Shown here: positions 2,942 through 49,653 of the stretch, piece by piece
How the letters are laid out: every line of letters begins with the position of its first letter
Position numbering within the stretch: the stretch's first letter is position 1
Source of the DNA: Scilla litardierei
Taxonomy: Eukaryota > Streptophyta > Magnoliopsida > Asparagales > Asparagaceae
NCBI GenBank assembly: GCA_030789695.1
Contig: CM061142.1
Location: forward strand, 155,964,714 to 156,028,713
Reading direction: 5' to 3'
DNA length: 64,000 bases
The notes under the pieces: model-generated
Seen by the model: only the letters and a program-made list of their open reading frames with translations
Databases searched by the model: none
What the model was told of the DNA's origin: nothing
Program-made: the position numbers and the translations under genes

Positions 2942-4785
2942 GCACACAAAGGATGCCTTCCACATTTTTACTGTCGATACGCTGGATACTTTTTGTGAGC
3001 CTGCTGGTTTTGCACCCCTGCTCCACACACTGTTTTGTTCACCTTATGGTCCTATCTGCATATATCTGTTTGGGAGAGAGGGAGTACTTTTTGAGGACAC
3101 TCATATTTGCACTATTTTGATCTATGCATGCATCACCCGCATTCTCATATCATTTTCTTTCTTTTTTCCCATCATGCATGCATCCTCACCCACCCCACCC
3201 ATTTTTGGTCTCTCGGTGTGCCACACTTTGCACATTGAGGACACTGTGCAATTTAGCTTAGGGGAGTGAGTTCTCACACTTTTCATTTTTTTTGTCGCCT
3301 TTTATTTTATTTTTCTCACATTTCTTCGTTTTTACACCCATTTTCACCCACTATTTCCTTTATTATCATGCATCAAGTTTTTTCTATTTCTTGAGTGTGC
3401 TGCATTGTACAGTAGTAGTTTTCATTTCCTTTTTAGCCTTATTTCTTTCATCTTTTTGCTAGAGATGAATTTTCTGTGATGATGATGACGTGGTGTTAGC
3501 TTATCTCTATATGCATATTACTTTGTCATGCCATAGTTTTTATTTCAGATATCATATGTTGTGTCTTGTTATGCATTTGAGATAGTAACCCGCACTTTCA
3601 TGCATGAATATGGATGAAATTCTTTTATTAGCTGAGCCTGATGATTTTCACTATATACTCTTCGTAGAAAACACACCAAGCTTCACGCATTGATTACTTA
3701 TATCTGGAGTACTGCTTTCTTTTCTTATATCACTTCTTATTGCATGAAAATTGTACGCTTCACTTTCAGGTTGAATAAATGTTTGTTAGGTTGATATAAC
3801 TGGATTAGTTTACTTTCTAAGATTAAACTGAGTAGATTACATTACTTTACTCAAAGTTGTCGTGCACGTCATATAGAGTGAACCGAGAGTTACATATATT
3901 TCTTTCTCCACATATCTTGAGCATTATTTCTATACTTATATTTATTGGTGAATCTCCCTTTAGCGATTCTATCATTGGCAATTCCCCCGCCTTTAAATTC
4001 CATGCTCCAATTCCCCAAAATCAATAAGAAAAAATATATATAAGTATATCTTTCTAGCTTTTGATTTGGGATCTCAGATGTATTTATGCTATTAAAAAAG
4101 AAGAAAAAAGAAAAAGAAGAAGAAGAAAAGAAAAGAAAAGAGGAAAGAAGCTTATACATGATCCCATATCATACTCTTTCTCTCTTTCTTCTCTCTTTTG
4201 TTTTTATTTTTATTGGAGCTCCAAAAATGGGGAATGTACTTATTGATTTACTTATGCCACCACGCTTATAGATAAGGGAGAGGATTCAATGATGTGTGAG
4301 GGAGTGACTACTTGACTGTGCATGACAACCTAAGCTGGGTAATTTTCTATACTCGGTGAGATTACTGAAAGTTTTACGAAATCCAGGAATTGAAACTTAG
4401 CATGCATTTCGCGAAAACCATACCTTTCTATTCTTAGTGATCCATGATGTGTGATATCTCTTATACTCCAAATAGAAAACATTCAATAGAAAAGTGTGTG
4501 GTCTATGATTATGTATACCGCTTTAGATGCTTCAGACGATGTTAATTCTAGAACGATTCCATATTTCATGTTGCTTTGACATTCTCGGGTTTTCTATTTT
4601 GAATGCATCCGTATGACTGTGATATCGAGATGAAAATCTTTGGCATGTGTTTTATATTCGTCGCATGCTATATTAGTAAGCAAGGCCCACGTCCTGAGAA
4701 AATGATCTAGCACCTCTCTCTTTGCTTTATTTCTTTATTTTCTATCTCTTCCGTTTTTTTTCTTTTCATTATTTTTGTCGTCGCG
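2942..4785 (+). other. 3' untranslated region of F
   Basis: AT-rich, no plausible gene. It aligns piecewise with the 3' untranslated region of A on the other strand and contains one polypurine-tract-like motif, AGCTTAGGGGAG, at about 3256-3267, equivalent to AGCTTGGGGGAG in A at 8210-8221. A purine-rich run (AAGAAAAAGA type) lies at 4095-4150. Confidence 0.7.
4781..4785. repeat. Target-site duplication left of array A
   Basis: TCGCG directly before the first LTR base; the partner after the third LTR is TCGTG (28711-28715), one mismatch in five. Confidence 0.6.
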
Positions 4786-5105
4786 TGATCGCTCTGGAAT
4801 GTAACCCAAAGAACGGTTGTAGTTTTACCGCAAGCGCACGGTATAGCGGCGAGCGGGTTATCGAACACAGGGAGGACGAATGACCGTGCTTGTTCTAATC
4901 AAACTGGCTTTTTAAGAAGAGAGAAATTTGCCTTTGGCGATCCTGTCACAATCGTCAGACAAAGTACGGAAATATCAAATCAAATAAAGAACGTCTAGGG
5001 AATGGGGAATTCCCGCTACTCACCGTATCTCGTCAATGTGGTTCATCTGTATCAAAATTGCTAGAATAAGATTTTGGATGAACTAGTTGCAACTGAATGT
5101 AGAAC

Positions 5106-5443
5106 CAAGCTCACGCTCTCGCGCTGTTGCCGGTCTATAGCTATCCTAGGTTCGGGTCCAATCTCTTGCAAACCCTAGCCTAGGGAAGCTAGCATTAGGA
5201 TCAACATCATCGTTCAATCGCGCACCGAGCCCAATCTCTTGCAAACTCGGCCCACGACCTAGGTTGGGATAGTTCCTACCCGTCCAATCTCTTGCAAACG
5301 GGTATCGACACGGAATTGCAACTGGGAACCTTAGTATCGGTCCAATCTCTTGCAAACCGATACTTCGGAAATTCGATTACAACCCAATTCGGATTTCTAG
5401 GGTTTCCTATCGAATTGGGATCCAATCTCTTGCAAATCCCAAT
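5106..5443 (-). promoter_or_regulatory. GNRA hairpin array in LTR1 leader
   Basis: On the minus strand, six hairpins in a row. Five share the core TTTG-CAA-GAGA-TTG-GA, each enclosed by a different perfectly complementary stem: ATTGGGA/TCCCAAT (5414-5443), TATCGG/CCGATA (5335-5362), TACCCG/CGGGTA (5277-5304), CCGAG/CTCGG (5225-5250), and an imperfect one at 5145-5180. The sixth (5106-5129) has the core CGC-GAGA-GCG. The inner three-base stem changes but stays paired while GAGA is constant. Confidence 0.75.
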
Positions 5444-5832
5444 CGGTATGAACTCCTAGCTATCCGTAGTAAATCGCTCCCAAACTAATCCCTAATAACA
5501 ATTCTAGCAAAATTTCTACCAATTCATCACAAATATGAAATTGGCTTGTAGGGTTCATCCACACGCCCCAAGACGTGGAGACTACTCACAATTCATAGCG
5601 CAAACACAAAAATAATCAATGAAATAAACAAGAGAATTCATCACAATATTGAGATAAGCAATAAAAATAGAATTTTTAGAGAAGAGAGAGACAAACCAAT
5701 TGAGTTCTTCAAATAATCCAACAAAAATCAACTTTTGTCTCCTCTTTAATCACAAGAATAAAGCTAAAAGTTAATCTTAAAAGCTGCAAAAAATCTAAGA
5801 GAAAAACTCTCAAAACTAGGGTAAAAACAGGG

Positions 5833-5840
5833 GTTAAATA
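5833..5840 (-). promoter_or_regulatory. TATA-like box of LTR1
   Basis: Minus strand GGGGTATTTAACCCC; the same position in LTR C reads GGGTATTTAAACCC. It lies between the palindrome array (upstream) and the hairpin array (downstream). Confidence 0.55.
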
Positions 5841-5923
5841 CCCCCCAAAATCGTCCAAAAACTGTGACCAAAATACCCCTGCGCAGCCTGAAATCCGTAA
5901 TTTTCGCTACAGGCAGCGCGTCG

Positions 5924-6307
5924 CACTCGGCCGAGTGACAAAAGTCGCTCGGCCGAGTGAGAAACCCTGTAAATTTCCAGTAAGTCTTGATCTTCATGGG
6001 TCTTCACTTTGGGGGCGTCTCGGCCGAGTGAGTTGTCGTCACTCGGCCGATGGCTTCTTGGTACTCGGGCGGTCGGGATTATCCACTCGGCCGAGTGGGT
6101 CTTCTGAAGCTCAGGCAGCCGAAAAACAGTAAGTTGGCGATTTTTGAATGGCTTCGTCTGGGCGCCACTCGGACGGACGGGATCTCGTCACTCGGCCGAT
6201 GTGGTCTCCGTCGCTCGGCCGAGTGCACGTATGAAACGTATCCGATCTGGTCGGCCGAGCGGTGTCTCGCTGGTCGGCCGAGTGACTCCTCCACTCGGCC
6301 GAGTGGG
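5924..6307 (-). repeat. CTCGGCCGAG palindrome array in U3 of LTR1
   Basis: About twelve full or partial copies of CACTCGGCCGAGTG spaced irregularly by 5-60 bases, immediately upstream of the TATA-like box. The same palindrome recurs inside the element at 11125-11462. Confidence 0.85.
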
Positions 6308-6600
6308 ACTCCAAAAATGCCCAAACAGCTTGTTTTGGCCTCCTCGTCGCTCCTGCGACGTCCTTTCTTCTTCCGCTCCTCTCCAACAGCAAAATACCCC
6401 TTGGGGAGGTCGTCGGTGACCCTCTGGAGTAAGCGCATCTCGAGATCACTCCAAATCGCTCCAAATCACCTGAAATGCGACAAAAACAACAAATCGTGAA
6501 AAGCATCGCAATATCGTCGATATATCGTGAAAAACATGATTTGGGCGATCTAAATGGCATGCAAACATGCGGGAAAAAAGTGTAAAATAAGGAGTGGTCA

Positions 6601-15668: not shown

Positions 15669-15839
15669 TCTCCCTGTTAAGATCTTATGCAAAACACGGG
15701 GAGAATATGCAAATAGGGATGCGAACAGGGTTAGAACAAGATATAGAAGAAAGTAACGGAAGAAGGAAAGAAGAAATAACCGGGTGGTCGATGCCGAACA
15801 CCGTCAAAACGACGCTCCCCGGCAACGGCGCCAAAAACT
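15669..15839 (-). promoter_or_regulatory. PBS and short leader of unit 1
   Basis: The plus strand at 15817-15833 is the exact 3' end of plant tRNA-Asp (CCCCGGCAACGGCG plus CCA), so the minus strand carries a tRNA-Asp primer site, 6 bases from the LTR. Only 148 bases separate it from the pol ATG, so there is no room for gag. Confidence 0.9.
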
Positions 15840-16159
15840 TGATCGCTCTGGAATGTAACCCAAAGAACGGTTGTAGTTTTACCGCAAGCGCATGGTATAG
15901 CGGTGAGCGGGTTATCGAACACAGGGAGGACGAATGACCGTGCTTGTTCTAATCAACCTGGCTATTTAAGAAGAGAGAAATTTTCCTTTGGCGATCCTGT
16001 CACAATCGTCAGACAAAGTACGGAAATATCAAATCAAATAAAGAACGTCTAGGGAATGGGGAATTCCCGCTACTCACCGTATCTCGTCAATGTGGTTCAT
16101 CGGTATCAAAATTGCTAGAATAAGATTTTGGATGAACTAGTTGCAACTGAATGTAGAAC

Positions 16160-16497
16160 CAAGCTCACGCTCTCGCGCTGTTGCCGGTCTATAGCTATCC
16201 TAGGTTCGGGTCCAATCTCTTGCAAACCCTAGCCTAGGGAAGCTAGCATTAGGATCAACATCATCGTTCAATCGCGCACCGAGCCCAATCTCTTGCAAAC
16301 TCGGCCCACGACCTAGGTTGGAATAGTTACTACCCGTCCAATCTCTTGCAAACGGGTATCGGCACGGAATTGCAACCGGGAACCCTAGTATCGGTCCAAT
16401 CTCTTGCAAACCGATACTTCGGAAATTCGATTCCAACCCAATTCGGATTTCTATGGTCTCCTATCGAATTGGGATCCAATCTCTTGCAAATCCCAAT
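16160..16497 (-). promoter_or_regulatory. GNRA hairpin array in LTR2 leader
   Basis: Same six hairpins as LTR1 at 5106-5443. Substitutions relative to LTR1 fall outside the paired positions of the four perfect stems. Confidence 0.75.
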
Positions 16498-16887
16498 CAG
16501 TATGAACTCCTAGCTATCCGTAGTAAATCGCTCCCAAACTAATCCCGAATAACAATTCTAGCAAAATTTCTACCAATTCATCACAAATATGAAATTGGGC
16601 TTGTAGGGTTCATCCCCACGCCCCAAGACGTGGAGACTACTCACAATTCATAGCGCAAACACAAAAATAATCAATGAAATAAACAAGAGAATTCATCACA
16701 ATATTGAGATAAGCAATAAAAATAGAATTTTTAGAGAAGAGAGAGACAAACCAATTGAGTTCTTCAAATAATCCAACAAAAATCAACTTTTGTCTCCTCT
16801 CCAATCACAAGAATAAAGCTAAAAGTTAATCTAAAAAGCTGCAAAAAATCTAAGAGAAAAACTCTCAAAACTAGGGTAAAAACAGGG

Positions 16888-16895
16888 GTTAAATA
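16888..16895 (-). promoter_or_regulatory. TATA-like box of LTR2
   Basis: TATTTAAC on the minus strand, as in LTR1. Confidence 0.55.
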
Positions 16896-16978
16896 CCCCC
16901 CAAAATCGTCCAAAAACTGTGACCAAAATACCCCTGCGCAGCCTGAAATCCGCAATTTTCGCTACAGGCAGCGCGTCG

Positions 16979-17362
16979 CACTCGGTCGAGTGACAAAAGT
17001 CGCTCGGCCGAGTGAGAAACCCTGTAAATTTCCAGTAAGTCTTGATCTTCAGGGGTCTTCACTTCGGGGGCGGCTCGGCCGAGTGAGTTGTCGTCACTCG
17101 GCCGATGGCTTCTTGGTACTCGGGCGGTCGGGATTATCCACTCGGCCGAGTGGGTCTTCTGAAGCTCAGGCAGCCGAAAAACAGTAAGTTGGCGATTTTT
17201 GAATGGCTTCGTCTGGGCGCCACTCGGGCGGACGGGATCTCGTCACTCGGCCGATGTGCTCTCCGTCGCTCGGCCGAGTGCACGTATGAAACGTATCCGA
17301 TCTGGTCGGCCGAGCGGTGTCTCGCTGGTCGGCCGAGTGACTCCTCCACTCGGCCGAGTGGG
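16979..17362 (-). repeat. CTCGGCCGAG palindrome array in U3 of LTR2
   Basis: As in LTR1, with scattered base changes (for example CTCGGTCGAG at the first site). Confidence 0.85.
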
Positions 17363-17655
17363 ACACCAAAAATGCCCAAACAGCTTGTTTTGGCCTCCTC
17401 GTCGCTCCTGCGACGTCCTTTCTTCTTCCGCTCCTCTCCAACAGCAAAATACCCCTTGGGGAGGTCGTCGGTGACCCTCTGGAGTAAGCGCATCTCGAGA
17501 TCACTCCAAATCGCTCCAAATCACCTGAAATGCGACAAAAACAACAAATCGTGAAAAGCATCGCAATATCGTCGATATATCGTGAAAAACATGATTTGGG
17601 CGATCTAAATGGCATGCAAACATGCGGGAAAAAAGTGTAAAATAAGGAGTGGTCA

Positions 17656-26723: not shown

Positions 26724-26894
26724 TCTCCCTGTTAAGATCTTATGCAAAACACGGGGAGAATATGCAAATAGGGCTGCGAACAGGGTTAGAACAAGATATA
26801 GAAGAAAGTAACGGAAGAAGGAAAGAAGAAATAACCGGGTGGTCGATGCCGAACACCGTCAAAACGACGCTCCCCGGCAACGGCGCCAAAAACT
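26724..26894 (-). promoter_or_regulatory. PBS and short leader of unit 2
   Basis: tRNA-Asp primer site at 26872-26888 on the minus strand, 6 bases from LTR3, followed by the pol ATG without gag. Confidence 0.9.
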
Positions 26895-28710
26895 TGATCG
26901 CTCTGGAATGTAACCCAAAGAACGGTTGTAGTTTTACCGCAAGCGCATGGTATAGCGGTGAGCGGGTTATCGAACACAGGGAGGACGAATGACCGTGCTT
27001 GTTCTAATCAACCTGGCTATTTAAGAAGAGAGAAATTTTCCTTTGGCGATCCTGTCACAATCGTCAGACAAAGTACGGAAATATCAAATCAAATAAAGAA
27101 CGTCTAGGGAATGGGGAATTCCCGCTACTCACCGTATCTCGTCAATGTGGTTCATCGGTATCAAAATTGCTAGAATAAGATTTTGGATGAACTAGTTGCA
27201 ACTGAATGTAGAACCAAGCTCACGCTCTCGCGCTGTTGCCGGTCTATAGCTATCCTAGGTTCGGGTCCAATCTCTTGCAAACCCTAGCCTAGGGAAGCTA
27301 GCATTAGGATCAACATCATCGTTCAATCGCGCACCGAGCCCAATCTCTTGCAAACTCGGCCCACGACCTAGGTTGGAATAGTTACTACCCGTCCAATCTC
27401 TTGCAAACGGGTATCGGCACGGAATTGCAACCGGGAACCCTAGTATCGGTCCAATCTCTTGCAAACCGATACTTCGGAAATTCGATTTCAACCCAATTCG
27501 GATTTCTATGGTCTCCTATCGAATTGGGATCCAATCTCTTGCAAATCCCAATCAGTATGAACTCCTAGCTATCCTTAGTAAATCGCTCCCAAACTAATCC
27601 CGAATAACAATTCTAGCAAAATTTCTACCAATTCATCACAAATATGAAATTGGGCTTGTAGGGTTCATCCCCACGCCCCAAGACGTGGAGACTACTCACA
27701 ATTCATAGCGCAAACACAAAAATAATCAATGAAATAAACAAGAGAATTCATCACAATATTGAGATAAGCAATAAAAATAGAATTTTTAGAGAAGAGAGAG
27801 ACAAACCAATTGAGTTCTTCAAATAATCCAACAAAAATCAACTTTTGTCTCCTCTCCAATCACAAGAATAAAGCTAAAAGTTAATCTAAAAAGCTGCAAA
27901 AAATCTAAGAGAAAAACTCTCAAAACTAGGGTAAAAACAGGGGTTAAATACCCCCCAAAATCGTCCAAAAACTGTGACCAAAATACCCCTGCGCAGCCTG
28001 AAATCCGCAATTTTCGCTACAGGCAGCGCGTCGCACTCGGTCGAGTGACAAAAGTCGCTCGGCCGAGTGAGAAACCCTGTAAATTTCCAGTAAGTCTTGA
28101 TCTTCAGGGGTCTTCACTTCGGGGGCGGCTCGGCCGAGTGAGTTGTCGTCACTCGGCCGATGGCTTCTTGGTACTCGGGCGGTCGGGATTATCCACTCGG
28201 CCGAGTGGGTCTTCTGAAGCTCAGGCAGCCGAAAAACAGTAAGTTGGCGATTTTTGAATGGCTTCGTCTGGGCGCCACTCGGGCGGACGGGATCTCGTCA
28301 CTCGGCCGATGTGCTCTCCGTCGCTCGGCCGAGTGCACGTATGAAACGTATCCGATCTGGTCGGCCGAGCGGTGTCTCGCTGGTCGGCCGAGTGACTCCT
28401 CCACTCGGCCGAGTGGGACACCAAAAATGCCCAAACAGCTTGTTTTGGCCTCCTCGTCGCTCCTGCGACGTCCTTTCTTCTTCCGCTCCTCTCCAACAGC
28501 AAAATACCCCTTGGGGAGGTCGTCGGTGACCCTCTGGAGTAAGCGCATCTCGAGATCACTCCAAATCGCTCCAAATCACCTGAAATGCGACAAAAACAAC
28601 AAATCGTGAAAAGCATCGCAATATCGTCGATATATCGTGAAAAAAATGATTTGGTTGATCTAAATGGCATGCAAACATGCGGGAAAAAAGTGTAAAATAA
28701 GGAGTGATCA
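26895..28710 (-). mobile_element. Athila-type LTR3 of array A (outer 5' LTR, 1816 bp)
   Basis: Starts TGATCGCTC and ends AGTGATCA. About six differences from LTR2, four of them near its right end. Followed by the presumed target-site copy TCGTG and then by F sequence. Confidence 0.92.
27215..27552 (-). promoter_or_regulatory. GNRA hairpin array in LTR3 leader
   Basis: Same six hairpins as in LTR1 and LTR2; the palindrome array at 28034-28417 and the TATA-like box at 27943-27950 are also as in LTR2. Confidence 0.75.
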
Positions 28711-29494: not shown

Positions 29495-29740
29495 TGACGT
29501 GCGTTTATATTTCAAATATTTAAGCACGTTTTCTTCCGTGTTTTTCCGTATTTTACCGCCGTCTTATATTCGTTTTCTCGTGTTTTCTTGTTTTCTTTCA
29601 CTTTTCCGTGTTTTCCGTGTTTTGCAGGAGTTTACTGGCATTTGGGGCATAAAACGATGATATCATGTGTCCCCGGAGCAACGAGAGGAGTCACGCGTGA
29701 TCCAGGGGGTCAAACGACAAAGATTGCATCTTTCAGCCCC

Positions 29741-30133
29741 TCACCCGGTCGGTTGGTCATCTCCAACCGATCGGGTGATGCACGCGTGCACCACCCGGGT
29801 GCAGCTTGGAGCTCACGAGAAGTCACCCGGTCGGTTCAGTGACCGGGTCAAAAGCTCAAAGTCTCTGGAAATTTGGAGATGATTGCCAACCGATCGGGTG
29901 ACCTTCACCCGATCGGTTCACCTGTGGCTGAATTCCAACAGCCAAGATCCGATGATCCAACTGGTCTCCTCACCCGGTCAGCACCAAGATCCAACCGGTC
30001 GGCACCAAGATCCAACCGACCGCACCCAAGCTCCAACCGACCGGTTCATCCTGACCGGGTGAAACCCCGCATTGCGCTGTAATTTTGTGAAGCGGTTCAC
30101 CCGATCGGTTGACTTGTCAACCGATCGGGTGAT
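29741..30133 (+). repeat. CCGATCGG/ACCGGGTGA palindrome array in U3 of B
   Basis: Many copies of AACCGATCGGGTGA, CACCCGATCGGTT and half sites such as ACCGGTC, in both orientations, ending 9 bases before the TATA box. The same motif set recurs inside B at 34264-34613. Confidence 0.85.
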
Positions 30134-30142
30134 GTCGTTTTC

Positions 30143-30150
30143 TATAAATA
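30143..30150 (+). promoter_or_regulatory. TATA box of B 5' LTR
   Basis: TATAAATA in TTTTCTATAAATAG, directly downstream of the palindrome array. Confidence 0.8.
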
Positions 30151-30577
30151 GAACCATAGGTTTCCCAGATTCGGGAGGTCGGTTATTTTTGCTGTTTTCT
30201 TCATTTTGTGACGGCTGTAATTTTCCAGTTTTTGTAAGTTTTCGGATCTTTGTAAAACTTTAGTATTATCTTAATTGCTTTACTACCATCGCATTTCTAT
30301 TGTCTGATCATGATTTTTACGGTTCATTTTCGTTTAGATCGCTTTTTACTAAATATGTGTGAGTAGTTCCCAAATCTGGGATTTTGGCGGAAACCCCTTC
30401 GTGGGCTCTTCCCGATGCGTCCATAGGGTTAGGAAATCGATAGGGATTAGGAATCTAACGGTTACACGAGGTGTTTTATTGTCATCGGTGGGAAAAAGAC
30501 CGCCTTTGACCGTCGGGCCAAGGGGGAATAAACTTGGCGGTTGACTCCCTAGCCATAGCTCGCGCCCTTAGCGTAGA

Positions 30578-30836
30578 CGTCGAATCCTAGCACGCGGGAG
30601 CGGCAGGATGAGACGTTGGGAGTTATCGTTGCGAGCTTAGTGCTCCCGGAGTCGATCAGTGTTAATGGACACGGGAGTGCCCACTGATCGAACCCGGGAA
30701 GTCCGGCGTATCATCCTGGGCACCGACCGGAATATCGGGCCCATGGGATGCCGGTACTACTTTCAGAGGCAACGTCTCACCTTTAGACCCTAATTCCGAT
30801 CGCTATCCTACCCGTAGGCCGTATCGGCGAGAGTCG
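30578..30836 (+). promoter_or_regulatory. GNRA hairpin array in B leader
   Basis: Three clear hairpins. At 30578-30615: CGTC/GACG and ATCCT/AGGAT outer stems, inner CGC-GGGA-GCG. At 30652-30691: a perfect 10-bp outer stem (TCGATCAGTG/CACTGATCGA) with inner CAC-GGGA-GTG. At 30825-30836: CGGC-GAGA-GTCG. A further stem-loop, CATCC and TGGGC pairing with GCCCA and GGATG, lies at 30712-30750. The 3' LTR keeps the first one unchanged and has mismatches in the second. Confidence 0.7.
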
Positions 30837-31124
30837 CTCGTTGGGGTGAAAACCAAAGTCCCGGGTTTTTCCCTTCATATTGTCTATACCTTGCATTCCT
30901 TTACCGTGACAACCCATCATTCGATCTGGGCTAGCGCGCCCATGGGGTGATTTTGATCCTCTTTGACACAAGCACATCCTCGCCTCCCTGAGTTCGACCC
31001 CCAAGCCACACTACGACACCGTGCGCTTGCGGTTACAAATATTTAAATTCGCACGCCCCCATTCACATCATTATGCAACATCCGGCGCGGATTAGACGCG
31101 CCCGGCGGGGGCCGGTCAAGTTTA

Positions 31125-31140
31125 TGGCGCCGTTGCCGGG
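31125..31140 (+). promoter_or_regulatory. PBS of B (tRNA-Asp)
   Basis: TGGCGCCGTTGCCGGG, 16 bases complementary to the 3' end of plant tRNA-Asp, 6 bases after the LTR. Confidence 0.9.
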
Positions 31141-31329
31141 AGGCAACGTGCTTGCTATTTTAGGATTTCATGAACCCTAGTGTCTAGCTCTCATCCCTAC
31201 CTCGCGATAATTTTCGCATTCTTCTTTTTCCTTTTTATTTTCTTATTTTTATTTTTATTTTTATTTTTATTTCTTATCTTATCTGTTCCTTTCCCACTTT
31301 TCTCTTCACGGGTGTTTGTTGTTTTTCAT
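31141..31329 (+). other. Leader between PBS and gag of B
   Basis: No gene. A (TTTTTA)n run at about 31237-31273 and an acceptor-like CATGCGCAG just before the gag reading begins. Confidence 0.5.
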
Positions 31330-37232: not shown

Positions 37233-38856
37233 TAACGTGTGTTTATATTTCATATATTTACGCACGTTTTCTTCCGTGTTTTTCCGTGTTTTACCGCCGT
37301 CTTATATTCATTTTCTCGTGTTTTCTTGTTTTCTTTCACTTTTCCGTGTTTTTCGTGTTTTGCCGGAGTTTACTGGCATTTGGGGCATAAAACGATGATA
37401 TCATGTGTCCCCGGAGCAACGGGAGGAGTCACGCGTGATCCAGGGGGTCAAACGACGAAGATTCCATCTTTCAGCCCCTCACCCAGTCAGTTGGTCATCT
37501 CCAACCGATCAGGTGATGCACGCGTGCACCACCCGGGCGCAGCTTAGAGCTCACGAGAAGTCACCCGGTCGGTTCAGTGACCGGGTCAAAAGCTCAAAGT
37601 CTCTGGAAATTCGGAGCTGATTGCCAACCGATCGGGTGACCTTCACCCGATCGGTTCACCTGTAGCTGAATTCCAACAGCCAAGATCCAATGATCCAACC
37701 GGTCTCCTCACCCGGTCGGCACCAAGATCCAACCGGTCGACACCAAGATCCAACCGACCGCACCCAAGCTCCAACCGACCGGTTCATCCTGACCGGGTGA
37801 AACCCCGCATTGCACTGTAATTTTGTGAAGCGGTTCACCCAATCGGTTGACTTGTCAACTGATCGGGTGATGTCGTTTTCTATAAATAGAAATCTAGGTT
37901 TCCCAGATTCGGGATGTGGGTTATTTTTGCTGTTTTCTTCATTTTGTGACGGCTGTAATTTTCCAGTTTTTGTAAGTTTTCGGATCTTTGTAAAACGTTA
38001 GTATTATCTTAATTGCTTTACTACCATCGTATTTCTATTGTCTGATCATGATTTTTACGGTTCATTTTCGTTTAGATCTCTTTTTACTAAATATGTGTGA
38101 GTAGTTCCCAAATCTGGGATTTTGGCGGAAACCCCTTCATGGGCTCTTCCCGATGCGTCCATAGGGTTAGGAAATCGATAGGGATTAGGAATCTAACGGT
38201 TACACGGGGTGTTTTATTGTCATCGGTGGGAAAAAGACCGCCTTTGACCGTCGGTCCAAGGGGGAATAAACTTGGCGGTTGACTCCCTAGCCATAGCTCG
38301 TGCCCTTAGCGTAGACGTCGAATCCTAGCGCGCGGGAGCGGCAGGATGAGACGTTGGGAGTTATCGTTGTGAACTTAGTGCTCCCGGAGTTGATCACTGT
38401 TAATGGACACGGGATTGCCCACTGATCGAACCCGGGAAGTCCGGCGTATCATCCTGGGCACCGACCGGAATATCGGGCCCATGGGATGCCGGTACCACTT
38501 TCAGAGGCAACGTCTCACCTTTAGACCCTAATTCCGATCGCTATCCTACCTGTAGGCCGTATCGCCGAGAGTCGCTCGTTGGGGTGGAAACCAAAGTCCC
38601 GGGTTTTTCCCTTCATATTGTCTATACCTTGCATTCCTTTACCGTGACAACCCATCATTCGATCTGGGCTAGCGCGCCCATGGGGTGATTTTGATCCTCT
38701 TTGACATAAGCACATCCTCGCCTCCCTGAGTTCGACCCCCAAGCCACACTACGACACCGTGCGCTTGCGGTTACAAATATTTAAATTCACACGCCCCCAT
38801 TCGCATCATTGAGTAACATCCGGTGTGGATTAGACGCGCCCGACGGGGGCCGGTCA
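37233..38856 (+). mobile_element. 3' LTR of B (1624 bp)
   Basis: Same length as the 5' LTR; first bases TAACGTGTG (the TG end mutated to TA). It has the palindrome array at 37479-37871, TATA box at 37881-37888 and the hairpins from 38316. Confidence 0.93.
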
Positions 38857-39816: not shown

Positions 39817-40122
39817 TGATCACTCCATATTTTATACCTTTTTTCTGCATGTTTACATGCCGTTTTGATCGCCCATATCGCGTTTTTCATTATTATTCGA
39901 CAATATTGCGATGCTTTTCACTATTTCTTGTTTTTGTCGTATTTCAGGAAATATGGATCGATTTGGAGCCAATTTGAGATCAAGGGATTTACAAGCGCTT
40001 AGGAGTGATACCCACGGCTCATTTAAGGGCTTATCAGCGATGGAGGATGAGCGGAAGAAGAAGGAAATCAATAGGAGCGATGAGGAGGCAAAAAGAAGAA
40101 GAAACATGCATTTCAGCACATT

Positions 40123-40487
40123 ACTCGACCGAGTATAACAGCCACTCGGCCGAACAAGAAGTCCCACTCGGCCGACAAGAACGGATACTCACACGGAGTT
40201 TTCAGCGTATACTCAGCCAAACGAAGAAAGCCAACTCGGCCGAGTGAGAAAGCTCACTCGCCCGAGTGGTACAGGGAAATTGTCCAGAGAAAGGCCAGAG
40301 ATACTGGAATTTTCAGAGATCCTGATGAAGCCCCACTCGGCCGAACGATATAGCTACTCGACCGAATGAATAAGTCTACTCAGCCGAGCCATCCCCTGAA
40401 GACAGACCCTGAAACATCCGAAGTTACAGTTTTTTTTACAGGGTTTGTCACTCGGCCGAGTGACAAGGGTCACTCGGCCGAGTGACC
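40123..40487 (+). repeat. CTCGGCCGAG palindrome array in U3 of C
   Basis: About ten full or degenerate CACTCGGCCGAGTG sites upstream of the TATA-like box. Confidence 0.8.
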
Positions 40488-40568
40488 CGCTTCGCCTGCT
40501 GCTAGGGTTGCGATTTCTGGGCTGCGCAGGGGCAGTTTGGTCACGATTTTCTGGACGATTTTAGAGGG

Positions 40569-40576
40569 TATTTAAA
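40569..40576 (+). promoter_or_regulatory. TATA-like box of C
   Basis: TATTTAAA in GGGTATTTAAACCC, as in LTR A. Confidence 0.6.
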
Positions 40577-40944
40577 CCCAATTTTTGCCCTAGTTTGGAG
40601 AGCTTTTTGAACAATTAATTTTTAGATTTCCTTTTAGGATTTTGAAGGCTACTCTTTGTGAAATCTCAGCTGGAGATCGTCGGCGATTACATTGGTTTGT
40701 CTATTTCTATTAAAAACTTGATTTTTATGCATTATTTCTCTTTTGCAATGAAATGTGCCGAGATTATTGTTGATTTTTCTGAGATTTGCATGATGTCTAG
40801 TGAGAAGTGCCGTCGTCCTAGGGCGTAGGGATGAACCCTTTGGACCCTATTTCTAAATTGTGATGAATTTGTAGAATTGTTGCTAGAATTGATTAAGGTT
40901 AGGTTGTGATCAATAGATTACGGATAGCTAGGAATTTCATATCG

Positions 40945-41280
40945 ATTGGGATTTGCAAGAGATTGGATCCCAATTAATAGGAAGTCCTAGATATTCGATT
41001 TAGATTGACAATTGGATTTCTCTAGATTTGGTTTGCAAGAGATTGGACCAAAGTTAGGATTTTTAATTGTGTTTCTATACTAATATCCGTTTGCAAGAGA
41101 TTGGACGGATAGGAACTACCATAACCTATGTTGTAGCTCGAGTTTGCACGAGAGTGTGCTCGAGATACAGTTGAACAATGATGTCGTTCTTCACGCTAGC
41201 GGCTTAGGCTAGGGTTTGCACGAGAGTGGGCTCTATCCTAGGTTTGCTATAGACCGGCAATAGCGCGAGAGCGTGAGCTA
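40945..41280 (+). promoter_or_regulatory. GNRA hairpin array in C leader
   Basis: Six hairpins. Outer stems: ATTGGGA/TCCCAAT (40945-40974), TTTGG/CCAAA (41027-41052), TATCCG/CGGATA (41084-41111), CTCGAG/CTCGAG (41137-41164), an imperfect one at 41207-41242, and TAG/CTA (41261-41280). Inner stems: CAA/TTG three times, CAC/GTG twice, CGC/GCG once, always closed by GAGA. The third outer stem is the partner of TACCCG/CGGGTA in A, so one base pair has changed on both sides. Confidence 0.8.
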
Positions 41281-41603
41281 GGTTCTACATTAAGTTGCGA
41301 CTAGTTCACCTATATTCAAGCTTAGCAACAATGAAACTTATGAATCACAAGGATGAGAGACGGTCCGTAGTGGGGATTCCCTATCCCTAGACGTTTTATT
41401 ATATTGATATTTCTCTTGATACTTGAACGATTGTGACTGTTATACCCAGAAATATTCTTGATTCTCTTGATAGCTAGGTGATCGGAAAAAATACACAGTC
41501 ATTTGTCCTCCCTGAGTTCGATACCCGCTCGCTGCTACACCGTGTGCTTGCGGTAAAACTACAAGTCGTTTTTCGGGTGTACACTCAGACGCGATCAAGT
41601 TTT

Positions 41604-41620
41604 TGGCGCCGTTGCTGGGG
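41604..41620 (+). promoter_or_regulatory. PBS of C (tRNA-Asp)
   Basis: TGGCGCCGTTGCTGGGG, one mismatch to the tRNA-Asp complement. Confidence 0.85.
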
Positions 41621-41683: not shown

Positions 41684-42199
41684 GCTGGGCGAGAGATGGG
41701 GTGTGGGCAATGCGTGGAGGTGGGTTAAGCGTGAGCTGGGCGTGGGGGAGTTGCTGTCGCCGGTAGTTTGGGCAGAGGGTGACAGTCCAAGGCGAAGGGG
41801 AGATGAGGAAGGGGTGGCGGCGTTTTGGAGCTCGGAGGGGGAGATGAGGATTAATTGAGTTTTAATGGGTAAATTAATATAGGTTTAAAGGGGTTTTTAA
41901 TAGGAAAGTTTTCATTTGGCAATTAAAAGTTTAAAAAGATTTTGAAAGTTGAATTTGAATTTAAAATTTGAAATTTGAGTTTTGAAAAGTTAAACTAATT
42001 ATATAGAGATATTTGAAAATACCTATTAAAGGATTTATCTAAGTTAGTTTAAAATAATGATGATAATAACAATATGTATAAGCTTGAAGTGGAAACGGGT
42101 ACGGGGAAACAGGGACATATACGCCTAACTACGAATACGAAGAAGAAAAAGCACACTTAAGAATACGGATAAAACGCATCGTGAAAACTGGTCGTTACA
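41684..42199 (-). mobile_element. Element E, left LTR, part 3
   Basis: End of the left LTR of E; the right end GGTCGTTACA is TGTAACGACC on the minus strand, the U3 start. It matches about 46871-48014 with a deletion of several hundred bases (roughly 47000-47640 of the right LTR, TATA box included, is not represented). Confidence 0.8.
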
Positions 42200-46561: not shown

Positions 46562-48043
46562 TGAAAGTGCAGTGAAGGATTGGAATGCAGCGATGGGTAG
46601 CGACGATGCGTACGGCTCCAAAATAGCGACGTTGAGCGTCGGGAGTGGAGGAAGGGGCCGCTCGGGTTGAGGATGATGATCGATGTGGCTGCGCGCGGGT
46701 ACGTGTGGTTGTAAGATCTCTAGAGGTGGGTCGAAGGAGCTCCTGGGCATGCGTCGGATCTGGGCGTGGCGTTTGCATGCGTGGAGGGGCAGTAGCCCGC
46801 GGCCTCGGCGCGTGTTGGTGTTTCTAGGCATGGGGAAGAGCGATAGGGCAAGGGGAGATTGTTTGGGGGTTGCTGGGCGATAGATGGGGTGTGGGCGAGG
46901 CATGTGGGCGAGGCGTGGAGGTGGGTTAAGCGCGAGCTGGGCATGGGGGAGTTACTGTCGTCGGCGGTTTGGGCAGAGGGTGACAGTCCGATGGAAGTGG
47001 GAGATGAGGAAGGGGTGGCGATGTTTTGGAGCTCGGAGGGGAGGCGTGACCTGTGGATTTACGACGAGGATGGGAGGAGCTCACGTGAAGATGAGCTGGG
47101 TGATCGCAGCTGCCGACGGGGCTCCAGGTTGTGCGAGTTTCGTGTATGGAAGAGGAGAAGAGAGAGGCACCGTGGGTGTTTGGGCGGGCTGGGCGGCGAC
47201 TAGAGGGGATGCCGGCATCGGGACGTGGAGAAGTCGGGCTGTGGCTCGGTTGCATGGAGGAAGGAGGAAGGGGGTCTGCGAGATGCGTCGATGGCGAGGA
47301 GGCCGCGCGTTCAGCTCTTTCGCGTGGAGAAGATGAGATAGAGAGGGGCGGCGCGTGTTGTAGGGTTGAAAGCAGACCTTGGGTTATATATAATGGAAAA
47401 GTAGGGTGAGGCACTAAGGCTGCTGTGTCCTAGGGTTAAAAAAATATTTAGCTTAAGGGTTAAAAATTGAGTTGTGTAAAGGACACGTGAATAGGTTTCC
47501 TCTTTTTTTTGGGTTAGGTCAGCTGTATGAGCTAATAGCCTAGGGTTATATCATGTAAGTTTGGGTGTGGGGCTGTGAAGAGCACGTGAAGGGTTGCTTA
47601 ATTTCAGCCACAGGGTTTTAACCAAAAATTATAGTTATAATAGGAAGTTTGAGTAATAAGAAGGATTGATTGAGTTTTAATGGGTAAATTAATATAGGTT
47701 TAAAGGGGGTTTTAATAGGAAAGTTTTCATTTGGCAAATAAAAGTTTAAAAAGATTTTGAAAGTTGAATTTGAATTTAAAATTTGAAATTTGAGTTTTGA
47801 AAAGTTAAACTAATTATATAGAGATATTTGAAAATACCTATTAAAGGATTTATCTAAGTTAGTTTAAAATAATGATGATAATAACAATATGTAGAAGCTT
47901 GAAGTGGAAACGGGTATGGGGAAACAGGGACATATACGCCTAACTACGGATACAAAGAAAAAAAAGCACACGGAAGAATACGGATAAAACGCATCGTGAA
48001 AACTGGTCGTTACACCAAATCGCTTGACCAAGCGAGTGTCTCG

Positions 48044-48433
48044 CTCGGCCGAGCGACCAAGCCGCTCGCCCGAGCCAGCAGTTAGTAGAGCCCAATTCTT
48101 CAATGCAAATTTTTTGGAAATTTTTGGGGTTTCATAATTCGGTCGAGTGACTTGTCACTTGGCCGAGCGGCCCAAGCACTCGGTCGAGCGGAGTAGAAAT
48201 GGCCAGCAAAGTGTAGATTTTAGGACAGCCCTTCACTTTTTGAAGATCTGCTATCACTTGGGATTTTTCAGTATCTTTCTCATATTTTTCCCAGATAGTA
48301 GACTTCAAAAAAATTCCAACGCCATCAAAAACGCACCAAACAGAGGTCGGATGAGCCCTAGAGAATTTTTGCAAGTTGGCAAATTTATGCTTGAATCTGT
48401 GCTCGGGCAGACACGTGTCTGCGCTCGGCCGAG
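48044..48433 (+). repeat. GCTCGGCCGAGC palindrome sites in U3 of D
   Basis: About eight sites of the CTCGGCCGAG type (several as GCTCGGCCGAGC or TCGGTCGAG), upstream of the TATA box. Confidence 0.7.
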
Positions 48434-48508
48434 CCTCCTGCAGCAGCCAGCCCGATCTACCTGGGCAGTAGGCACATGTCCAACTCAATTTAGAGTTATT
48501 TTGGTGGA

Positions 48509-48516
48509 TATATAAG
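48509..48516 (+). promoter_or_regulatory. TATA box of D
   Basis: TATATAAG in GTGGATATATAAGGGG. Confidence 0.75.
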
Positions 48517-48916: not shown

Positions 48917-49221
48917 GGAGTATTGCGAAGGCGACTCCATATCTTAGGGAGAATCACCACGAATCTGATTTGGGGTTAGTGGCCATTTCCAGGACTCGTG
49001 ATCATGAGAGTGACTCGAGATCTAGGGCGACCACCAATCCTCGATCCGCTAGTCGGTGACTACGAGAGTAGCTCGATTGCTAGAACCAATCATAGCATGG
49101 CGTCGTAATCCGTAAATCACGAGAGTGGATACAGAATTGCGAGGCGGGACCAAGTGTCAAGCTTAATGCATGCATTCCTATGCAAAGTTGACTGCGAGAG
49201 CATGGCTTCACATAGGGATGC
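48917..49221 (+). promoter_or_regulatory. GNRA hairpin array in D leader
   Basis: GGAGT/ACTCC (48917-48938, loop GCGAAGGC type); CTCG/CGAG with inner CAT-GAGA-GTG (48995-49019); CTAG..TCG/CGA..CTAG with inner CTAC-GAGA-GTAG (49049-49082); inner CAC-GAGA-GTG (49105-49132); and GCATTCCTATG/CATAGGGATGC with inner TGC-GAGA-GCA (49172-49221). The sequence differs from A, C and B but the inner stem and loop pattern is kept. Confidence 0.7.
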
Positions 49222-49653
49222 GTTAGACAAGCAGGAATAACGAACGTTAAGTACTCGTTCTCATATACAGATGTAAAACTCCTACCCTCATCCATCTTCT
49301 AACGAAGGGACCCTTAACCTGTTATCTAAACACGAAAGTCCTAACGGGGATTCCCGACACCCTAGTGATATTTTCCTCATTCGTTCTCTTTGTTGTCTTT
49401 GTTTTTCTTTCCTGTTTTGATGTGCATTGTTGACAGTGACACCCTCGCATTCCACATCCACCACCATTATGCCACTCCATAATCTATCTCCACTTAATAA
49501 AACATATTCAAAGCTTAACCTAGCCTAGGATCGATAGGTAGTGTGACACCGCCTCCATGTGGATACGATACTTGCTCGCTGATATTTACACATACCGTGC
49601 GCTTGCGGTAAAATGACATTCGTACTTCTGGGTGCAAACCCGAGGACCGAACA

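Follow-up and report, generated by a model that had tools for sequence, protein, structure and literature searches.

Repeated GNRA-capped hairpins in the predicted leader RNA of Athila-type LTR retrotransposons of Scilla litardierei

Several Athila lineages in the genome of Scilla litardierei carry a conserved, repeated RNA module in the predicted untranslated leader (R/U5), composed of short hairpins closed by GNRA tetraloops. In the LTR families designated A and C, the compensatory changes counted on a tree exceed those of slid pairings, and the array is by this measure a conserved structured RNA. The reading favoured here, although tentatively, is that it may act as a packaging signal recognised by Gag, offering multivalent binding sites in the leader. 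The array is new to the open-licence PMC literature that was searched, where no description of it was found (one published elsewhere could be missed), and we infer its function from the sequence.

The window, meaning the whole stretch of 64,000 nucleotides that was analysed (contig CM061142.1, positions 155,964,714 to 156,028,713), contains three LTRs A, all of them on the minus strand, and, on the plus strand, LTR C and two LTRs B. In its A and C LTRs five hairpins share the core TTTG-NNN-GAGA-N'N'N'-NN, the sixth being a GAGA hairpin in another setting. The six lie about 370 to 740 nt 3' of the TATA box in A3 and C, with the end of the array about 310 nt before the LTR end.

39817..41597, plus strand: LTR C (TGATCA...GCGATCA), 1781 bp, then the primer-binding site (PBS); 70% identical to LTR A from end to end
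40569..40575, plus strand: TATA box of LTR C, TATTTAA, about 375 nt 5' of the array
40944..40975, plus strand: hairpin 1 of LTR C, GATTGGGATT-TG-CAA[GAGA]TTG-GATCCCAATT
41027..41052, plus strand: hairpin 2 of LTR C, TTTGGTT-TG-CAA[GAGA]TTG-GACCAAA
41084..41111, plus strand: hairpin 3 of LTR C, TATCCGTT-TG-CAA[GAGA]TTG-GACGGATA
41137..41164, plus strand: hairpin 4 of LTR C, CTCGAGT-TT-GCAC[GAGA]GTGT-GCTCGAG
41203..41242, plus strand: hairpin 5 of LTR C, CTTAGGCTAGGG-TTTG-CAC[GAGA]GTG-GG-CTCTATCCTAGG; the energy fold favours a shifted register with a 6-base loop
41249..41287, plus strand: hairpin 6 of LTR C, CGC[GAGA]GCG, without TTTG and with an irregular outer stem; overlapping register AGC[GTGA]GCT
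26895..28710, minus strand: LTR A3 (TGATCA...TGATCA), PBS 26872-26888 behind it
27209..27553, minus strand: six-hairpin array of LTR A3
15840-17655, minus strand: LTR A2, PBS 15817-15833 behind it
16154..16498, minus strand: six-hairpin array of LTR A2
4786-6600, minus strand: LTR A1, no PBS behind it
5100..5444, minus strand: six-hairpin array of LTR A1

An earlier note on this DNA had placed the array in LTR C and the A LTRs at coordinates that proved correct on re-reading. It had given all six hairpins the TTTG core, which is true of five, the sixth (CGC-GAGA-GCG) being without TTTG, and had spoken of about 30 hairpins, where those of A and C in the window number 24. Its description of outer stems that differ and are nonetheless complementary is borne out in LTR C and the three A LTRs, where these stems are unrelated to each other and each complementary, save that the outer stem of hairpin 5 of A is interrupted by mismatches. 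The cores sit in differing frames (offsets modulo 3 of 1,0,1,0,1 in A3 and 1,0,1,0,0 in C), which rules out a coding repeat.

The PBS TGGCGCCGTTGCCGGGG, which we take to be a match to tRNA-Asp, lies at 26872 and 15817 and, with one mismatch, at 31125 (first LTR B) and 41604 (LTR C, 41604-41620). A tRNA-Asp PBS a few bases after the LTR is reported for the Diaspora/Calypso/Athila lineage in the available part of one paper (PMC1142308). The element of LTR A matched PF03078 (ATHILA) with an E value of 3e-8, along with reverse transcriptase (RT), RNase H and integrase in Pfam, and is assigned to the Athila type because of these matches; that of LTR B gave matches to Retrotrans_gag and protease only. 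Pfam recognised no Gag domain in the scanned pieces of A or in the ORFs of two short elements described below. As far as their sequences tell, the hosts of the array can be classed as Athila-type Ty3/gypsy elements, the protein scans covering A and B, and the PBS being found in A, B and C. The A element is a tandem of LTR-internal-LTR-internal-LTR at 4786-28710, in which a 12.9-kb stretch is repeated with 99.6% identity.

Hairpins of this kind exceed what chance would provide. Where 0.70 occurrences of the core pattern TTTGNNNGAGANNNG would be expected in the window, 19 are present, a count reached by none of 100 shuffles, and perfect 3-bp GAGA hairpins number 32, against a shuffled mean of 9.5 and a largest value of 17. 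These cluster to six within 330 bases, the maximum in any of 200 shuffled windows being two. A stricter scan of both strands, in which hairpins 5 and 6 as well as B hairpin 2 went undetected, returned 28 hairpins, with 18 in arrays (12 in A, four in C, two in B) and 10 elsewhere. Throughout the 3.68-Gb genome the exact 16-base core is present 139,488 times (70,207 + 69,281), while the reversed control gave 0. Rfam returned no family at gathering score over the whole window, and none at E up to 1 in 40900-41320, so that a known Rfam RNA was rejected. Two core-pattern scans of viral contigs gave no match and a protein scan gave one, unconfirmed; the lone match in other genome contigs (L001, an Alistipes MAG) is low-complexity, purine-rich and unrelated.

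Leaders were also sampled by their primer site. The PBS 17-mer has 28,545 occurrences in the genome (reversed control, 2), and 70 of the first 73 listed sites along one contig were taken in order, not chosen by hairpin; the three omitted were 2314373 and 2364140, both next to A/C arrays that had been listed before, and 4730829, which is 88 bp away from a sampled site. The upstream 1.1 kb of these sites clustered into A/C (34), B (20), G (7), F (6), E (2) and one single leader. At least three A/C cores were present in 33 of the 70, L086 being an A/C leader without them. Across 37 A/C leaders, of which three are window LTRs, the GNRA loop of every one of the six hairpins is present, with its 3-bp stem paired, in 32 to 35, that of hairpin 6 in 33 (its AGC[GTGA]GCT register in 31). 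The loop, first described as invariant, is GAGA in 31 to 35 of the 37, and single copies elsewhere have broken loops or stems. The inner stem, thought to be always CAA/TTG, CAC/GTG or CGC/GCG, can also be CAT/GTG, TAA/TTG, TAC/GTG, TAT/GTG or CAG/TTG in other copies. A TATA-like box 360-441 nt 5' of the first core found was located in 14 of 16 A/C leaders; for the second B hairpin such a box lies 5' in five of nine B leaders, two of which are without the hairpin by the pattern used.

The sample also shows on which strand the hairpins lie. Perfect 3-bp GAGA/GGGA hairpins per leader average 5.03 in sense and 0.12 in antisense for A/C (n=34), 1.80 and 0.00 for B (n=20), and 1.67 and 0.00 for F (n=6), and are absent from both strands in G (seven leaders) and E (two leaders). 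Family F has a CAY[GAGA]GTG hairpin in 6/6 leaders and family E has GCGA hairpins in 2/2. In G a weak GAGA site with G-U pairs occurs far upstream in 6/7 leaders and GAT[GTGA]ATC in 3/7; because this cluster (7/70) is without a comparable hairpin, the array is not obligatory for every element with this primer site. The singleton L088 has no perfect GNRA hairpin. Pair-probability folds of ten non-A/C leaders gave a GNRA loop above 0.4 in L039, L042, L044, L047, L048 and L056, and none above that value in L038, L040, L045 and L058. L048 and L096 form a small family sharing the PBS, in which two GCGA-capped hairpins precede the PBS end by about 480 and 540 nt, one of them an uninterrupted 8-bp stem.

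The array had been described for LTRs A and C, and it is present in both, but related arrays occur in LTRs B and D of the window as well.

29497..31118, plus strand: LTR B, first copy, PBS 31125-31141 with one mismatch
37235-38856, plus strand: LTR B, second copy
30584..30609, plus strand: B hairpin 1, ATCCT-AGCA-CGC[GGGA]GCG-GC-AGGAT; second copy 38322-38347
30652..30691, plus strand: B hairpin 2, TCGATCAGTG-TTAATGGA-CAC[GGGA]GTG-CC-CACTGATCGA; second copy 38390-38429, with mismatches
48995..49019, plus strand: D hairpin CTCG-TGAT-CAT[GAGA]GTG-ACT-CGAG, forming in the long fold, not the short one
49049..49083, plus strand: D hairpin TAC[GAGA]GTA inside CTAG.TCG/CGA.CTAG, energy not unusual (z -0.47)
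49104..49141, plus strand: D hairpin CAC[GAGA]GTG inside CGTAAT/ATTGCG (z -2.2)
49172..49221, plus strand: D hairpin TGC[GAGA]GCA inside a long outer stem (z -3.6)

The two B hairpins sit at the place corresponding to the A/C array. Hairpin 1 has its GNRA loop and a paired 3-bp stem in 18 of 21 B leaders (one window LTR included; GGGA in 17), hairpin 2 in 19 (GGGA in 18), and both are missing from L040, a member of cluster B. Compensatory variants, compiled as a list, occur in the outer stem (TCGATCAGTG/CACTGATCGA, TCGGTCAGTG/CACTGACCGA and CGGAAGGTG/CACCTTCCG) and in the inner stem (CAC/GTG and CAT/ATG); by this count, the outer stem has just 2 to 4 pairs in L033, L039 and L103. Other GNRA columns of family B are shared by just 10 to 13 of the 21 leaders. 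LTR D, a single copy, has a TATA box at 48509, a U5-like motif GCGCTTGCGGTAAAA at 49599 and four GAGA hairpins, whose loops fall within 49006-49199 and of which three, with perfect 3-bp stems, lie within 142 bases; by energy, two of the four hairpin segments are unstable (z -0.47 and -0.31).

Since many copies descend from few subfamilies, covariation in the A/C LTRs was assessed by parsimony, with changes counted on a tree built from spacers and flanks only. A first set of 27 LTRs combined four of the window, 20 further leaders and three loci, the genomic ones being picked by the exact core; selection of L002-L029 in this way guarantees at least one intact hairpin in each LTR. The unused loci were L001 (unrelated) and L003, L004, L006, L007 and L009 (overlaps). 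A set of 48 LTRs drew 21 from the PBS sample with a locator that required the loops and TTTG, not the stems, and left out 12 PBS loci identical to earlier LTRs as well as L086 (score 32.6, cut 45).

Among the 27 LTRs, unpaired intermediates between one base pair and its replacement are few or absent. In hairpin 2, 14 LTRs have C-G at pair -3/18 and 13 have T-A; in hairpin 3 this pair is C-G in 16 and T-A in 11, and pair -4/19 is C-G in 13, T-A in 12 and unpaired in two. For hairpin 4, pair -5/20 is C-G in 13, T-A in 13 and T-G in one. The third inner pair is C-G in 18, A-T in seven and T-G in two for hairpin 4, and A-T in 19, C-G in seven and T-G in one for hairpin 5. The compensatory change noticed between C and A in hairpin 3 (TATCCG/CGGATA against TACCCG/CGGGTA) is indeed present, and hairpins 2 and 4 show more. 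Over 66 pairs, 93.9% of cells are paired against 12.9-52.0% with slid partners, and nine two-sided pair-keeping branch changes were counted against zero to one in slid controls.

With 48 LTRs the inner stems, once said to be always paired, are so in 97.5% of cells, with four two-sided pair-keeping changes against 0 for slid pairings, and their breaks number 0 on internal branches and 18 on tips; tip breaks would fit the decay of dead copies. In the outer stems 90.9% of cells are paired, seven two-sided changes compare with 0-3 per slid control, and internal branches hold 14 breaks against 20 kept changes. The outer stems are thus under looser constraint than the inner ones. Both stems together give 11 two-sided pair-keeping changes against 0-3 in each slid control.

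These results bear on a reading at the level of DNA, which we regard as scarcely probable, whereby dyad-symmetric protein sites or recombination products would mimic RNA hairpins. The same LTRs do carry palindromic repeats in U3, and in the available text on Sireviruses such U3 repeats are read as transcription sites (PMC2829016). The array, however, lies 3' of the TATA box, its loop is asymmetric, its outer stems change yet stay complementary, and GAGA/GGGA hairpins occur almost only on the sense strand. That the leader RNA is structured, as originally proposed, is well supported by the covariation in 48 LTRs, the B version, the sense bias and the conserved upstream TATA box.

The registers of the hairpins were examined by folding. 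In the minimum-energy fold the 5' TTTG forms a bulge of two bases, UG except in hairpin 4 of C, where it is UU, and its other two U pair with GA. A register in which two U of TTTG pair with GA/GG is compatible with 98.3% of cells, and is neither supported nor excluded by covariation because it shows no two-sided change and the -1 slid control is equally good (98.5% of cells). An overlapping GNRA register, TTT[GCAA]GAG, with G-U pairs, is found in 25 to 36 of 37 leaders at four of the five cores. Minimum-energy folds of whole leaders closed 21 of 24 loops as drawn (6/6 in A1 and 5/6 each in A2, A3 and C), those lost being hairpin 1 of A2 and A3, which pairs elsewhere, and hairpin 5 of C (6-base loop); local 50-nt folds closed 23 of 24. 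Folding-energy z-scores in 120-nt windows over the array range from +0.1 to -2.0 in A3, from -0.3 to -5.1 in C and from +0.7 to -3.0 in D; B is at about -4 to -5, and values as low as -6.4 (sense) occur in the U3 palindromes. Folding energy does not single out the array and is not diagnostic.

Stability is what would matter most if the array, as a rigid row of hairpins, controlled translation of the long leader by internal entry, shunting or polysome exclusion. About 1 kb of the leader belongs to the LTR, with nine (A3) or 13 (C) ATGs from the inferred start to the LTR end, and strong stems would impede scanning. A block or shunt, however, needs stability and not a near-invariant 16-base core in each of five hairpins, and stability is unexceptional in A3 and D, so that we hold this explanation to be quite unlikely. 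Tertiary contact or dimerisation, with the loops docking on the same or a second RNA, seems less likely again. GNRA loops commonly dock in receptors, and a compact fold would suit the near-fixed spacing of the cores (80 and 53 in 48/48 LTRs, 57-59 and 71-73 for the other two). Dimerisation by plain loop-loop kissing, in contrast, is out, GAGA not being self-complementary (reverse complement TCTC), and this part of the original suggestion is disfavoured.

The near-same 16-base core in five hairpins whose outer stems are unrelated but complementary favours a shared ligand over plain duplication. In the packaging model, transcription would run across the array, and each unit of bulge or internal loop, 3-bp stem and GNRA loop could be the binding site for one protein. 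Such a ligand would read the bulge, the 3-bp stem and the loop, ignore the sequence of the outer stem, which could vary freely while only propping the hairpin up, and gain from several sites, several copies loading on one leader. The protein may be the element's own Gag or its nucleocapsid part, and the array would then mark genomic RNA for packaging into virus-like particles. Counted against packaging are the three of 24 loops open in whole-leader folds, the unremarkable z-scores, the 14 outer-stem breaks on internal branches and cluster G without the array. Retroviral nucleocapsid contacts exposed loop guanosines, and Rous sarcoma virus SL-C with a non-native GAGA loop had lowered infectivity, according to the accessible part of PMC7599994; for these reasons, if Gag binds here, the motif must be read differently.

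A pol-less element with a well-kept RNA signal is what packaging or export would lead one to expect. In four such elements the arrays are separated by 5.7-5.9 kb and the internal part spans about 3.7-3.8 kb, a length taken from the PBS in two cases and estimated in the other two, with 3' LTRs starting at 3443 (L060), 3260 (L061), 3458 (L062) and 3287 (L063). At E 1e-5 they gave no match to the RNase H/integrase pieces or the RT domain of A, or to another RT of the window, the sole match being to residues 1-103 of the A ORF, and Pfam found no domain above cutoff in the ORFs scanned from L060 and L063. Their 5' LTRs (L010, L024, L028 and L025) carry five hairpins, with one inner-stem mismatch each in L024 and L028. 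The internal parts of these short Athila relatives (L060-L063 with L010, L024, L028 and L025) are 87-92% alike where aligned. All four were found through the hairpin core itself, and because of this they show that pol-less carriers exist, not how often the array is kept, which slightly lowered our confidence in packaging. On the packaging reading they would use the same sites and be packaged by proteins supplied in trans.

Alternatively, the array may serve nuclear export or RNA stability by bringing a host RNA-binding protein to the full-length RNA, a role comparable to that of CTE and Rev-response elements. This is unlikely in our estimate, although repeated near-identical sites, present also in some short pol-less elements, would serve it, and the family differences (GAGA with a UG bulge, GGGA with a bulged A) would suit a variant-tolerant host protein. 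One conserved host protein, however, should have kept the bulge type more constant between families. Gag packaging would consequently come first among the functional readings, followed by export, translation control and tertiary contacts.

A more specific form of the packaging reading, which we consider doubtful, is a lineage-specific hairpin code in which each Athila lineage would have its own bulge and tetraloop unit, read in multiple copies by its own Gag. The units would be a UG/UU bulge, 3 bp and GAGA in A/C, a bulged A, 3 bp and GGGA in B, and a third form in D. If true, this code would set which RNAs get packaged, short defective elements would parasitise matching full-length ones, and plant LTR retrotransposons would have a defined multi-hairpin packaging code. 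To our knowledge, how these elements select their own RNA is little understood. The array offers a concrete sequence for tests of packaging, export or translation, with its 139,488 exact cores in one genome and versions by lineage, and a means of studying how defective elements come to be mobilised. Its sense-strand hairpin signature could also locate leaders of the Athila lineage in genomes and transcriptomes.

Among known systems, the coat-protein hairpins of RNA phages (MS2 type) combine a stem of free sequence and a four-base loop with a base that bulges out a few pairs beneath the loop; the B hairpins, with their bulged A, 3 bp and GGGA, are the nearest to them. There is no sequence relation, however, the Athila hairpins form an array at set distances, and binding here is only proposed. 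The packaging signal of murine leukaemia virus is reportedly a pair of GACG hairpins. Retroviral psi resembles the array in that an LTR element carries several short hairpins with tetraloops in its 5' leader, those of HIV-1 having GGAG and GNRA-type loops (PMC7599994, in the text available). In contrast to psi, the Athila array has five to six near-identical units at near-fixed spacing, with unrelated outer stems and GAGA/GGGA loops, and lies 5' of the PBS, inside the LTR; Gag binding is here a proposal. The nearest design found is the alphavirus nsP1 packaging signal, described in the accessible part of PMC8233893 as four to six stem-loops with a conserved GGG motif, which likewise joins multiple stem-loops with a conserved loop motif; it belongs, however, to an unrelated virus, lies within coding sequence and has GGG, not GNRA with a bulge.

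Within LTR elements, conservation of the retroviral R region has been linked to stem-loops in a paper whose available text has no mention of Athila (PMC3601003). The Sirevirus LTR motifs are similarly repeated dyads in non-coding parts of plant LTR elements, but are given in the consulted portion of PMC2829016 as palindromes, mostly with a CGG-CCG signature, 5' of the TATA box, whereas the Athila array is 3' of it, asymmetric and GNRA-capped. The Diaspora/Calypso/Athila paper concerns the same lineage, with its tRNA-Asp primer site, and notes a long leader for Diaspora; the words 'hairpin' and 'palindrom' do not occur in its main text as available (PMC1142308). In the part of PMC2577118 at hand, 'hairpin' concerns a protease, and the main text of PMC3735527 has no DIS, packaging signal or stem-loop wording.

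The LTRs have further features apart from the array. A 15-base motif, GCGCTTGCGGTAAAA, possibly a second conserved U5 element, lies close to the 3' terminus of LTRs A and D (4823, 15877, 26932 and 49599), with one mismatch in C (41544) and two in B (31023 and 38761). A 353-bp repeat with 97% identity joins 41847-42199, in the internal part of C, to 47662-48014, just before LTR D. In all four LTR families, dispersed palindromes of the CACTCGGCCGAGTG or ACCCGATCGGTTG kind occupy U3, 5' of the TATA box, in the following regions.

About 28010-28390, minus strand: U3 palindromes of LTR A3
29742-30135: U3 palindromes of LTR B
40150-40490: U3 palindromes of LTR C
48030-48440: U3 palindromes of LTR D

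Those of A3 and B give the lowest sense-strand folding z-scores of their LTR, and the U3 palindromes are probably DNA-level sites.
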